Below, in pieces: positions 17,042 through 31,073 of a stretch of 46,757 bases of DNA. The notes below the pieces were generated by a model, which saw only the letters and a list, made by a program, of their open reading frames with translations, was not told the DNA's origin and ran no database searches. The stretch's first letter is position 1, and every line of letters begins with the position of its first letter. The DNA is from a virus: positions 1 to 46,757 of the IMG/VR virus record IMGVR_UViG_3300044632_000390; one strand, 5' to 3'. A program made the translations under genes and the position numbers.

Positions 17042-17509
17042 ATGGACTGGAAAACATTAGCTAAAAGCCCACAAGAATGGGCTAATTTGAAATACAATGA
17101 CCCGCGCTTAGATGCTTTTGCTGAAGAGGTAGAAAAGCGCTATCAGTTACCTACAGGAATTGTACTTGCTGTTAAGAATGCAGGGGAACGCACCAATCCC
17201 GGTCTGGTGTCTCCAGCAGGTGCTAGAGGAATAATGCAGTTTACAGATTCGACAAGAAAACTTAGAGAAGGCGCTTTTGACCATGACGTTGACGACCCAT
17301 TCCAATCTATCGACGCTGCTGGAAGATATTTGAAAGAGCTTATTAAAGAAAACAAAGGTGATGCAATGGCGGCAGTGGCTAACTATAATGGTGGACCATC
17401 TGCTGGTAAAGCTATTCGTAGTGGAAAGCAACCGCCAGCAAAAGAGACACAAGACTACATAAGCCGTGTAAAAGAGTATTTAACTAAAAAGTATGGAGGA
17501 AAGAAATAA
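17042..17509 (+). CDS. Soluble lytic transglycosylase (SLT, GH23-like), stand-alone
   Basis: Cleaves peptidoglycan glycan strands. The 155-aa protein has the SLT signature: catalytic Glu49, the 'S-P-A-G-A-R-G-I-M-Q-F' motif (57-67) and 'N-Y-N-G-G' in the last third. In T7 this domain is the N-terminus of ejection protein gp16. Here it is its own gene, 1 nt after the gp15-like gene, so it may still act as a virion-borne enzyme opening the cell wall on entry, or in lysis with the M15 peptidase next to it. The ATG at 17042 is chosen because the longer in-frame reading runs inside the upstream gene. It has a GGTGG Shine-Dalgarno. Confidence 0.88.
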   Translation: MDWKTLAKSPQEWANLKYNDPRLDAFAEEVEKRYQLPTGIVLAVKNAGERTNPGLVSPAGARGIMQFTDSTRKLREGAFDHDVDDPFQSIDAAGRYLKELIKENKGDAMAAVANYNGGPSAGKAIRSGKQPPAKETQDYISRVKEYLTKKYGGKK

Positions 17510-17886
17510 TGGATTGGTCTAAATATACCCCTTATTTTAAGAAAGAGGAGTTTACCTGTAAGCACACAGGCGAGAACGAAATGAAGCCTGAGTTTATGGA
17601 CAAACTGTTAGCCATAAGAAAACGCTATGGAAAACCTATGTGGATTACTAGCGGATATAGGTCTCCTAAACATCCCATAGAAGCTGCTAAAAAGGCTTCA
17701 GGCGCTCATGCAACAGGTAGAGCATGTGATATAGGCATACAAGGCTCAGAAGCGCTAGAACTGCTTAAAATAGCCTTAGAAGAAGGTATGACAGGCATAG
17801 GGGTGCAACAGAAGGGAGCAGGTAGATTCCTGCATCTGGATGATGTCACGCAAGGCTTACCAAGACCGAACATTTGGAGTTACTAA
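17509..17886 (+). CDS. Endolysin: M15-family D,D-/L,D-carboxypeptidase-like peptidase
   Basis: Zinc peptidase that cuts peptidoglycan peptides. At 125 aa it is the size of compact Peptidase_M15_3 proteins. Visible motifs are 'T-S-G-Y-R-S' (47-52), zinc ligands His67 and Asp74 in 'G-A-H-A-T-G-R-A-C-D', and His109 in 'F-L-H-L-D'. GGAGG sits upstream, and the ATG overlaps the transglycosylase stop (TAATG). It lies beside the holin gene, so it is the likely lysis endolysin. The absence of a signal peptide agrees with holin-dependent release. Confidence 0.9.
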   Translation: MDWSKYTPYFKKEEFTCKHTGENEMKPEFMDKLLAIRKRYGKPMWITSGYRSPKHPIEAAKKASGAHATGRACDIGIQGSEALELLKIALEEGMTGIGVQQKGAGRFLHLDDVTQGLPRPNIWSY

Positions 17887-17887
17887 T

Positions 17888-18298
17888 ATGTGGAATTTAC
17901 TTATACCCGCTGTAACGTCTTTATTAGACAAAGTTATCCCTGACCCCCAAGCTAAAGCTGAAGCGCAGCTAAAGATGCTAGAAATGGCTCAGAAGGGGGA
18001 ATTAGCTGCTTTAGATGCTGACATGAAACTAGCATTAGGACAGCTAGAGGTTAATAAGATTGAAGCTGGAACAGACTTGTTCAGAGGGGGCTGGAGACCC
18101 GCTGTGGGGTGGTTATGCGCTGCTGGTCTAGCCTATCAATTCCTATTACAGCCTATTCTACCGTGGGTAGTGGGCTTATTTGGTATTATGGTTCCTCCCT
18201 TACCTCCCATCGACAACGAAACTCTAATGGTATTGTTGACTGGCATGCTAGGCTTAGGCGGATTAAGAACGTATGAAAAGGTAAAGAAAGCAAGCTAA
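17888..18298 (+). CDS. Holin, GTA_holin_3TM family
   Basis: Membrane protein that permits endolysin release. The 136-aa protein has an amphipathic N-terminus (MWNLLIPAV), a cytoplasmic helical Ala/Lys/Glu segment, the family's 'F-R-G-G-W-R-P-A-V-G-W' motif near residue 62, and hydrophobic spans at about 67-100 and 113-130. This matches the three-transmembrane holins first described with gene transfer agents. The ATG at 17888 follows the peptidase stop by 1 nt, and an in-frame extension upstream is not needed. It is the last gene of the rightward block. The opposing terminator's T tract overlaps its stop codon. Confidence 0.87.
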   Translation: MWNLLIPAVTSLLDKVIPDPQAKAEAQLKMLEMAQKGELAALDADMKLALGQLEVNKIEAGTDLFRGGWRPAVGWLCAAGLAYQFLLQPILPWVVGLFGIMVPPLPPIDNETLMVLLTGMLGLGGLRTYEKVKKAS

Positions 18299-18334
18299 AA
18301 AGAAAAAAGCCTAAAGTGTTTCCACTCTAGGCTT
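18297..18334 (-). terminator. Intrinsic terminator of the minus-strand structured RNA / leftward block
   Basis: Read on the minus strand, a 12-bp stem (18323-18334 with 18307-18318, one G-U pair) closes on a GAAA loop and is followed by UUUUCUUUUU. On the plus strand the same hairpin has an A-C mismatch and no T tract, so the element works leftward. Confidence 0.88.
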
Positions 18335-18555
18335 AAATGTACCTCAGACGCCACTCTGGTTTACAATTCCGGTGAGTGGCGGCCTCCAGAGGAGGACTTT
18401 AGCCCGATGCCGAAGCAGGGCGGGAACGTATTAACAGCTTGTTGTAAGGTGGGGCTTATTACCCCGGTAACGACCCGTAGCCACATCCGTCGATGTGGTT
18501 CACCTGTAAATTCAGGCACATACTCTGATACCACTAGCCGGATAATTCACTAACA
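18297..18555 (-). ncRNA. Candidate discrete structured non-coding RNA, family unknown
   Basis: About 255 nt with no sensible ORF, richer in G+C than its surroundings and packed with hairpins. On the minus strand in 5'-3' order: CCTG/CAGG (18513-18516 with 18503-18506), a 7-bp CCACATC/GATGTGG stem (18492-18498 with 18481-18487), CGGG-type stem enclosing GGGG/CCCC (18462-18465 with 18451-18454), GCCC-TGC-UUCG-GCA-GGGC (18402-18421), CCTCC/GGAGG (18383-18395), an 8-bp CGCCACTC/GAGTGGCG stem (18374-18381 with 18349-18356), and the terminator. The C(UUCG)G and GAAA tetraloops and the G-U pair in the terminator appear only on the minus strand. A near-consensus promoter lies just upstream. I do not recognise it as tmRNA, 6S, RNase P or a riboswitch. 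Confidence 0.75.
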
Positions 18556-18561
18556 CTTACT

Positions 18562-18590
18562 ACTCTACACTACATTTTCCTTCTTGTCAA
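18562..18590 (-). promoter_or_regulatory. Sigma-70-like promoter for the minus-strand structured RNA
   Basis: Perfect -35 TTGACA (18590-18585), a 17-nt spacer and -10 TAGAGT (18567-18562), so transcription should begin near 18555, at the 5' edge of the structured region. A second TTGACA lies 12 nt further upstream (18602-18597). The promoter overlaps the 3' end of the last leftward gene. Confidence 0.7.
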
Positions 18591-18879
18591 GTGTGATGTC
18601 AAGTGGAGTGTACGCTGGAGGGTCAAATACTAAAAATACTTCTTCAACCTGCTCGTTACGCGCTCTTGTCAATAGCGAATATATCTCACCGCACGGTACA
18701 CTTACATTTTCATAACGAAACGCCATTTTCAAAGGCATTCCGTTTTCATCAATAAAACAACAACTAAACCGCGCTTTTTTTGTACTCCATGCGCTCCCAA
18801 AAACTTTACTGGCTCTTTCTGGAAACTGATCGAGTACATACCAAGTAGGCGCTCTTATAGACCACTTATGTACACTCAT
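18565..18879 (-). CDS. Hypothetical protein, last gene of the leftward block
   Basis: A 104-aa soluble protein with three Trp in the first 35 residues and a 'V-F-L-V-F-D-P-P-A-Y-T-P' strand near the C-terminus. No family recognised. It overlaps the upstream basic protein gene by 4 nt. The promoter of the structured RNA lies in its last codons. Confidence 0.65.
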   Translation of the reverse strand: MSVHKWSIRAPTWYVLDQFPERASKVFGSAWSTKKARFSCCFIDENGMPLKMAFRYENVSVPCGEIYSLLTRARNEQVEEVFLVFDPPAYTPLDITLDKKENVV

Positions 18880-29443: not shown

Positions 29444-30325
29444 CTAATGTACTTCCGACCAATCAGCGCCTATCTTTGCTTCTGCATCAATACGACACCT
29501 AAATCCTACCACATCTCTTACTTCATTTGCAAGTCTTTTTGCTAATTCTGCTAACTTTTCTGCATCATCAGGATGGCATTCAAACACAAGCTCGTCATGT
29601 ATGAAGCCTAGCTGATGCGCTCTAATGCTTTGTTGTTTTATTGCAACATTAACATCCACCATCCATTGCTTTGCCACAACAGCGCCAGCATTTTGCAGCA
29701 AAGTGTTTAATGCTTTATGCTCTGAGCGTACCCACAAACGTCTGCCATCAAGTCCGGGTAAGCTGCCATATTTTAACACTATGCTTTGTACTTTATCCAA
29801 TAGCTTAGAATAGCGTGGTGTATCAGCCTTAAACTTGTCAATACGTGCCTGACCTATCTTAGCGCCATGACCTGTAATGCTTCCAATCTTAGCAGCTCCA
29901 GCGCCATACAGCAAAGCATAGATAAATGTCTTAGCCTGATCTCGTGTGTCTAGCCCCGCTGCCATTTGATTCTTTGTGTGTACATCCCCCTCCAGTAATT
30001 CCTTAGTCCATTCCTCGTCTTGCATGTAATGTGCTAGACACCTAAGTTCAATACCTGACAAGTCCACATCGACCATAATGTAGCCCTGTCTAGGAATCCA
30101 ACATGACCTCATCTCTTTGCCATATTGCACCTTACCTGAAGGCACTTGAGCAATGTTAGGGCTAGAGTGCGTACAGCGGCCTGTAACAGCTCCACATGAG
30201 TTTACATACCCATGTACCACACCTTCCTTATCAGCGTGTTCTAGCCAGTTTGCAAGCATTCCTGAGTGCTTCTGGAGCATCAGGTAACGGCTAAGCAGCG
30301 TTGCTGCATTGAGTAATGATGTCAT
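29444..30325 (-). CDS. Family A DNA polymerase, fingers-palm part (split gene, C-terminal half)
   Basis: The 293-aa polymerase catalytic half. Motif A is 'D-L-S-G-I-E-L-R' with Asp88, motif B runs from Lys132 to Tyr140-Gly141 and motif C is His243-Asp244-Glu245; all catalytic residues are intact. The exonuclease/thumb half is in a separate frame at 30291-31073, overlapping by 35 nt. The ATG at 30325 has GAGG about 9 nt upstream, so independent start is possible, as are programmed frameshift or an indel. No T7-type thioredoxin-binding insertion is apparent. Confidence 0.9.
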   Translation of the reverse strand: MTSLLNAATLLSRYLMLQKHSGMLANWLEHADKEGVVHGYVNSCGAVTGRCTHSSPNIAQVPSGKVQYGKEMRSCWIPRQGYIMVDVDLSGIELRCLAHYMQDEEWTKELLEGDVHTKNQMAAGLDTRDQAKTFIYALLYGAGAAKIGSITGHGAKIGQARIDKFKADTPRYSKLLDKVQSIVLKYGSLPGLDGRRLWVRSEHKALNTLLQNAGAVVAKQWMVDVNVAIKQQSIRAHQLGFIHDELVFECHPDDAEKLAELAKRLANEVRDVVGFRCRIDAEAKIGADWSEVH

Positions 30326-31073
30326 CTAATATCGCCTCATCCATGACAAAGTTTCCCTTGTCTGTTTTCTTTTTGGGTTTCCAGCCTAGCCCTTGCAAGC
30401 GCTTCACAATCTGTTGTCTGCTGCCGGGGTTAAAGACCTCAACATCATCCTTCAGTCTCTTTCCGGTTTTTACGGAGTATCTTTCCGTAATTATCGGGGG
30501 GAAAGCCTCTTGCATTTCCTTCTCAATCGCTGCCAATTCGTCATCAAACCGAGCCTTTAGTTCCAACACTTTCATTACATCTATCTGCCAGCCGTAGCGT
30601 TCCTGCTCTGCCAACACTCTAGCTGATGCGTACTCTAGCTGTATGCTTTTCTCGCTAAAGTGCTTTAGTTCCTCTAGCAAAGCAATGTGTACTTTTTGCA
30701 ATAATGTAACATCTTGTCTGCAATAAGTATGCAAATACTGCATATCAGGCTTATCGAAATCAATAGGCTGTTGCAGCTTATGATAACCTAGCGCTACTCC
30801 CCATGCTTCTAGGCTATGGCCTCCTTGTCTGTCAGCGTTAGCAAGTCGTGAAAGCACCAGTGTATCTACCTGCTTGTCCTCTGGAATCTTTATGCCCCAT
30901 AGTTTCTCAAGCCAATAGAAGTCAAAAGCTATGCCATTATGCGCTACAACATATTTATCATCGAGATATTCCTGTAAACCCTTTGGTGTATAGAAGGTAC
31001 TATCATCAACACAGCACATCCATATATGACTTTGCTTGCTGTCTGTCTCAATGTCTAAGTAGGCGTAGTTCAT
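30291..31073 (-). CDS. Family A DNA polymerase, 3'-5' exonuclease part (split gene, N-terminal half)
   Basis: A 260-aa proofreading half: Exo I Asp7-x-Glu9, Exo II around Asn46 to Asp51 and Exo III 'Y-C-R-Q-D' ending at Asp121. The C-terminal region ('F-N-P-G-S-R-Q-Q-I') is the normal thumb lead-in. The homology continues directly in the other frame of the downstream ORF, which shows that the two halves descend from one gp5-like polymerase. Combined length is about 550 aa against 704 aa in T7. Confidence 0.9.
   Translation of the reverse strand: MNYAYLDIETDSKQSHIWMCCVDDSTFYTPKGLQEYLDDKYVVAHNGIAFDFYWLEKLWGIKIPEDKQVDTLVLSRLANADRQGGHSLEAWGVALGYHKLQQPIDFDKPDMQYLHTYCRQDVTLLQKVHIALLEELKHFSEKSIQLEYASARVLAEQERYGWQIDVMKVLELKARFDDELAAIEKEMQEAFPPIITERYSVKTGKRLKDDVEVFNPGSRQQIVKRLQGLGWKPKKKTDKGNFVMDEAILDDIITQCSNAA

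Follow-up and report, generated by a model that had tools for sequence, protein, structure and literature searches.

The viral record IMGVR_UViG_3300044632_000390, analysed here over its full length of 46,757 nucleotides (nt; the window), carries on its minus strand a short cassette whose 3' half belongs to a structured RNA family that, outside phages, lies directly behind genes for PemK/MazF-like toxins. At the level of sequence this family is well supported and is absent from Rfam 15. The conserved unit is the last ~120 nt of the cassette (18427-18307, minus), and a toxin profile finds no homologue in the window, where the RNA is an orphan copy. These observations suggest a toxin-RNA pair that has hitherto gone unrecognised and that phages may imitate to disarm their hosts. 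The 3' half of the cassette would then be an orphan phage copy of a toxin-linked RNA, acting as a mimic or decoy of an RNA antitoxin, a reading to which we give slightly less than an even chance (about 0.48).

Members of the family share a 5' hairpin (HP1), a linker with a second hairpin (HP2; AAG[A/U]C...GGCC), a long third hairpin (HP3) with an asymmetric internal loop, and a terminator. All these parts are present in the window in the order HP1, linker AAG[A/U]C, HP2, HP3 and terminator, with HP1 at the family consensus except at a variable position. HP1 variants in the family have UUCG, GUAA, GAAA or GAUA loops on CCCG/CGGG or GCGG/CCGC stems. The first lead came from blastn of the RNA against plasmids, which returned weak matches of ~27 nt, lying between genes, in an Endozoicomonas phage-plasmid and a Sphingomonas plasmid; these two are 94% identical over 35 nt, and the string they have in common is the first hairpin, GTTCCCGCYCTGCTTCGGCATCGGGC. 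A covariance model of 18 members from which the window was excluded (R2), although its alignment had been fitted to a model that included it (R1), matches the window at a single place, 18427-18344 on the minus strand (62.7 bits, expect value (E) = 2e-14). With R3 at E ≤ 1, the window gave the only match in 0.76 Mb that held ~100 other phage contigs.

Covariation was scored over 29 members, including loci with a differing HP1. Double-sided changes occur in 18 of the 22 pairs and 96.6% of cells pair, for a score of 0.655 vs 0.175 (standard deviation 0.016) in shuffles, none of which reached it (0/500), and at most 0.12 in slid controls; leaving the window out gave the same outcome. The alignment was fitted to the model and is hence biased towards structure, but the slid controls and the third stem, where all 8 outer pairs of HP3 show double changes across the family, make the conclusion safe. 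The support is limited to nested helices. Compensatory change was what the initial annotation had proposed to look for in related phages; the signal is strong, but it comes from relatives outside the window phage's own lineage.

What links the family to toxins, a connection missed in the initial annotation, is its genomic position. Full-structure RNAs in Alphaproteobacteria and in some viral contigs have directly upstream, on the same strand, a gene for a PF02452 PemK/MazF-like toxin (E ~1e-13). From the end of the toxin gene to the CCGC of HP1 the distance is 24-26 nt in 15 of 17 placed loci, with values of 32 and 39 nt for the remaining two, and the promoter of the RNA should therefore lie within the end of the toxin gene. 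When 298 Hyphomicrobiales genomes were searched with the RNA only, five of six matches were toxin-linked. The converse test, a protein search for toxin homologues in 385 alphaproteobacterial and 399 Pseudomonadota genomes, was independent of the RNA pattern and produced 21 toxin loci new to the RNA search, 19 of which have the RNA right behind the stop codon (E ≤ 0.01), visible by eye. Linked loci also occur beyond the Alphaproteobacteria, on plasmids of Polaromonas, Aquitalea and Enterobacter and at a Neisseria locus; the RNA was not found behind two toxins of E. coli plasmids that score lower with the profile. Each toxin locus examined has a single RNA copy behind the stop, with no repeat array seen, and all 41 toxin-linked RNAs tested carry the common linker motif and GA(n2-4)CAA in the third hairpin region. 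No upstream gene is common to the 39 loci compared, which leaves them with no conserved protein antitoxin. An AlphaFold model of the toxin (predicted local distance difference test score 82.9) matches MazF structures with a Foldseek probability of 1.00, and the toxin has no match in PADLOC 2.0 or NCBIfam. RNAs of other toxin-linked types gave no blastn match in 50,697 named phages. Neither the HP1 sequence nor a described RNA partner of PemK was found in the literature, in a search that had preprints and most subscription journals outside its scope.

In the window, the initial annotation had described a promoter, some 255 nt of structured RNA and a terminator, all on the minus strand (Table 1). 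Promoter and terminator are present as described. As a class, promoter-like sites are not in excess (11 in the window vs 8.6 in shuffles); this one is retained in a close relative, the contig L175, which lacks the other TTGACA copy, and its placement in the 3' end of an upstream gene matches the toxin-linked relatives. A 12-nt unit with TTGACA (window 18591-18602) occurs twice in the window and once in L175, and the kept copy is the one paired with TAGAGT. The direction of the RNA, read from its tetraloops, is independently backed by the covariance-model matches, which fall on the minus strand. This strand folds with -95.2 kcal/mol (z -3.70, 0/200 shuffles), compared with z -3.08 for the plus strand. 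Divided into parts, the 3' segment (18427-18304) reaches z -3.73, and the 128 nt on the 5' side (18555-18428) give z -1.19, within chance. The self-contained minus-strand cassette thus stands, with conservation confined to its 3' ~120 nt. Also as annotated, the cassette contains no open reading frame (ORF) of at least 60 amino acids (aa), and its G+C is raised (0.50 over 18304-18555 vs 0.418 for the window; ~4.6% of equal-length stretches are as high). It holds no tRNA or tmRNA, and the view that it belongs to no described RNA family is borne out by Rfam 15, which has nothing at gathering score anywhere in the window and only noise at E ≤ 10.

The remaining 5' ~124 nt are present neither in L175 nor in those other members of the family whose -10 box can be recognised; these begin ~6 nt past that box. 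They look like a lineage-specific insertion that separates the promoter from the conserved start. The insertion carries GTGAACCACATCGACGG, whose translation would give the VNHIDG of HNH endonucleases, and it weakly matches plasmid HNH genes; it is possibly a scrap of a homing endonuclease gene. The blastn matches to HNH endonuclease genes rest on the VNHIDG-like string and were set aside as too weak for use.

Table 1. Features of the cassette and its immediate neighbours in the window
Feature	Position	Strand	Remarks
sigma70-like promoter, TTGACA-17-TAGAGT	18562..18590	minus	overlaps 3' end of ORF 18565-18879
5' extension, ~124 nt, probable insertion	18428..18551	minus	between promoter and conserved start; fold z -1.19
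HP1, GUUCCCGCCCUGCUUCGGCAUCGGGC	18402..18427	minus	first hairpin of the family; C(UUCG)G loop
Linker and HP2, AAGUCCUCCUCUGGAGGCC	18381..18399	minus	second hairpin of the family
HP3	18349..18381	minus	8-bp stem, asymmetric internal loop, GG/CC inner helix, loop AAUUGUAAA
Intrinsic terminator	18307..18334	minus	12-bp stem, GAAA loop, U tract to ~18298; 99% identical in L175
Endolysin	17509-17886	rightward	lysis gene
Holin	17840-18298	rightward	lysis gene; adjoins the RNA and opposes its direction
Upstream ORF, 104 aa	18565..18879	minus	no family match; stands where toxin-linked loci have the toxin gene

How would such an RNA work? At the toxin loci, its transcription would begin at a promoter of its own within the end of the toxin gene and finish at its own terminator. 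Because the RNA is the sole conserved neighbour, has its own promoter and terminator and keeps a conserved fold, it is most likely the antitoxin and would bind the ribonuclease (RNase) toxin directly. RNA antitoxins of type III systems bind their RNase toxins in this direct manner. The sequences themselves show family membership, covariation, the link to toxins, the lack of a conserved protein antitoxin and, in the window, of a detectable homologue of the linked toxin; transcription, toxin binding, antitoxin activity and a role in counter-defence are what we infer. In the window phage the RNA is most likely made during infection with no toxin alongside, and as a mimic or decoy it would occupy a putative host toxin, leaving this unable to abort the infection. 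On this reading the initial annotation was right to allow for action on a host protein. A phage-borne RNA known as pseudo-ToxI suppresses ToxN (PMC3475682), and by analogy the window RNA most likely acts as a mimic or decoy too. Like the window, phage PhiTE with its pseudo-ToxI has an RNA that resembles a bacterial RNA antitoxin and no toxin; pseudo-ToxI differs in being an unrelated RNA and a repeat array, whereas the window has a single copy for which suppression is a prediction.

The toxin-RNA pair may work like a type III system. According to a review (PMC5086642), type III systems are marked by repeats that precede the toxin, a single promoter with an intervening terminator, and pseudoknots. 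As in ToxIN, CptIN and TenpIN, and also AvcID, an RNase-like toxin stands beside a structured non-coding RNA with no conserved protein antitoxin, the distribution is mobile and patchy, a terminator is attached to the RNA, and the toxin has a MazF-like fold. In type III systems, however, the RNA consists of tandem repeats processed by the toxin and lies upstream under one promoter, whereas here a single, non-repeated three-hairpin RNA of ~90 nt lies downstream, with its predicted promoter in the 3' end of the toxin gene. Covariation confined to nested helices does not establish a pseudoknot, for which linker and loop might pair. With repeats and upstream placement lacking and a pseudoknot no more than possible, the pair is not filed as type III. 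With the type II systems PemIK and MazEF it shares the toxin fold and Pfam family; these have an adjoining gene for a protein antitoxin, while here no protein is conserved upstream and an RNA is conserved downstream. As no protein antitoxin is conserved, the pair is, as far as seen, not type II.

HP1 reaches much further among phages than does the full structure. A pattern of 20 fixed bases, expected by chance to match an estimated once or less per collection, finds HP1 in 109 viral contigs, and in 25 contigs from 84,980 genomes. G(-4)TTC, although outside the search pattern, is conserved at 91/92/73/96% in viral and genome copies. Of 81 distinct viral copies, 29 have a TAnnnT box exactly 10 nt ahead of CCGC, compared with 0-4 at other offsets; this one exact offset implies that HP1 often starts a transcript. 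The linked toxin is present at just 5 of the 109 viral loci. In many freshwater phage contigs a further shared hairpin, GATAGAGCCCAAGCC..TTGAGGCGTCTCACGCTTGGGCC, follows HP1 (L317, L325, L329, L343, L348, L352 and L371), and tRNA-like genes follow it in L363, L364, L365 and L402; these may be arrays of small RNA modules behind one promoter. In L333 (3191-3270) an HP1-type RNA lies directly behind a gene that, judged by eye, resembles that for a major capsid protein, and is followed by a terminator-like hairpin.

Several points weigh against a decoy in the window. Most phage copies retain HP1 alone, and HP1 is constant among phage copies and variable among toxin-linked RNAs, a uniformity that is partly by construction because the phage set was picked by HP1. 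The most serious point is that the window HP3 loop, AAUUGUAAA, lacks the GA(n2-4)CAA of the toxin-linked RNAs; among orphan viral copies that retain the HP2 linker, 8 of 12 lack it too. In addition, the 5' insertion parts the promoter from the conserved RNA. It is possible that HP1 is enough for a decoy; alternatively, its task at the start of phage transcripts may be a different one. The second view can be taken further: HP1 might be a general 5'-terminal element of phage transcripts, serving decay protection, binding to a protein of phage or host, or elongation control, with the toxin-linked RNAs as one user of it and the window RNA unrelated to toxins. The fixed box, the G(-4)TTC conserved beyond the pattern, the diversity of what follows HP1 (tRNA-like genes and other hairpins included) and the majority of viral copies without HP2 and HP3 all favour such an element. 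Yet the window retains the linker, HP2 and HP3 with paired stems, and its HP1 lies ~128 nt from the predicted start and so is not 5'-terminal; for the window we regard this explanation as doubtful, if worth serious attention.

Decay of a toxin-RNA module that the phage acquired, with the toxin lost and the RNA drifting, would account for the altered HP3 loop, the insertion between promoter and RNA, and the state of L175, which lacks both this insertion and half of HP1. It is improbable, given that HP1 is at consensus, that HP2, the HP3 stem, terminator and promoter are intact on a strongly folded 3' segment, and that phages rarely retain idle DNA; L175 itself may be a poor assembly, with other deletions including one through the endolysin. 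Least of all do we expect a cis-acting RNA, such as a put-like antiterminator or a bidirectional insulator between the converging blocks. The cassette does sit where these blocks meet, and hairpins close to a phage promoter recall HK022 put. By its published description, put has another architecture (~70 nt, two stem-loops) and acts on downstream genes, whereas the window RNA runs at once, within 50 nt, into an intrinsic terminator, the next gene in that direction is the opposing holin, its relatives are toxin-linked, and a plain junction suffices in related phages.

The orphan mimic or decoy, our preferred reading, is in keeping with the nearest relatives of the window RNA, which are toxin-linked (a viral contig at 74% and a Polaromonas plasmid at 67% identity). 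The initial annotation had proposed to look for the RNA at the same position in related phages, but it is not syntenic: genomes with terminases 68-74% identical have a plain junction of 80-90 bp instead. Relatives with terminases 55-99% identical gave no detectable RNA copy, many of their contigs not reaching the junction. A 144-nt internal deletion was suggested by L175, but as this contig has other odd deletions, it was drawn on for the promoter and the 3' domain alone. Its endolysin is ~38 residues short, in frame, and an unrelated gene (L175, 3693-4250) replaces the window holin between flanks ~98-99% identical, which implies that the lysis end is being swapped. Neighbourhoods reached through holin relatives were unrelated, and exact searches with an 18-mer of the 5' insertion and a 17-mer of HP3 gave chance matches apart from L175.

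The cassette lies at the meeting point of the rightward lysis genes and a leftward nucleotide-metabolism block. The 104-aa ORF upstream of it has no Pfam, NCBIfam, PADLOC or PHROG match and no detectable homology to the toxin, and no relatives of it turned up in viral contigs. The phage terminase is 54-56% identical to those of a spring-water Caudoviricetes record and Methylophilales phages MEP401/402, and 52-54% identical to those of Celeribacter phage P12053L and Vibrio ICP2. Near-identical freshwater contigs connect the end of the 46.8-kb window to its start, which makes a circular or permuted record probable. Elsewhere, two overlapping minus-strand ORFs (29444-30325 and 30291-31073) match consecutive parts of one DNA polymerase family (phrog_17, profile 670-922 and 932-1232), which could come from a polymerase in two pieces, a frameshift or an error in sequencing.

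A wider proposal, which we hold tentatively, is that the pair represents a new toxin-antitoxin class found widely across Pseudomonadota. Its toxin, an RNase with the MazF fold, would be restrained by a three-hairpin RNA without repeats whose gene follows that of the toxin; phages would respond with orphan mimics, many of them only the 26-nt HP1 at transcript starts. If true, this would add a type III-like class and provide, after pseudo-ToxI, a second natural case of phages copying RNA antitoxins. Function aside, a well-supported structured RNA family is missing from Rfam. Should the pair prove functional, protein annotation would be blind to the RNA partner of many solitary PemK/MazF toxins that it assigns to type II, and phages would own copies of that partner.
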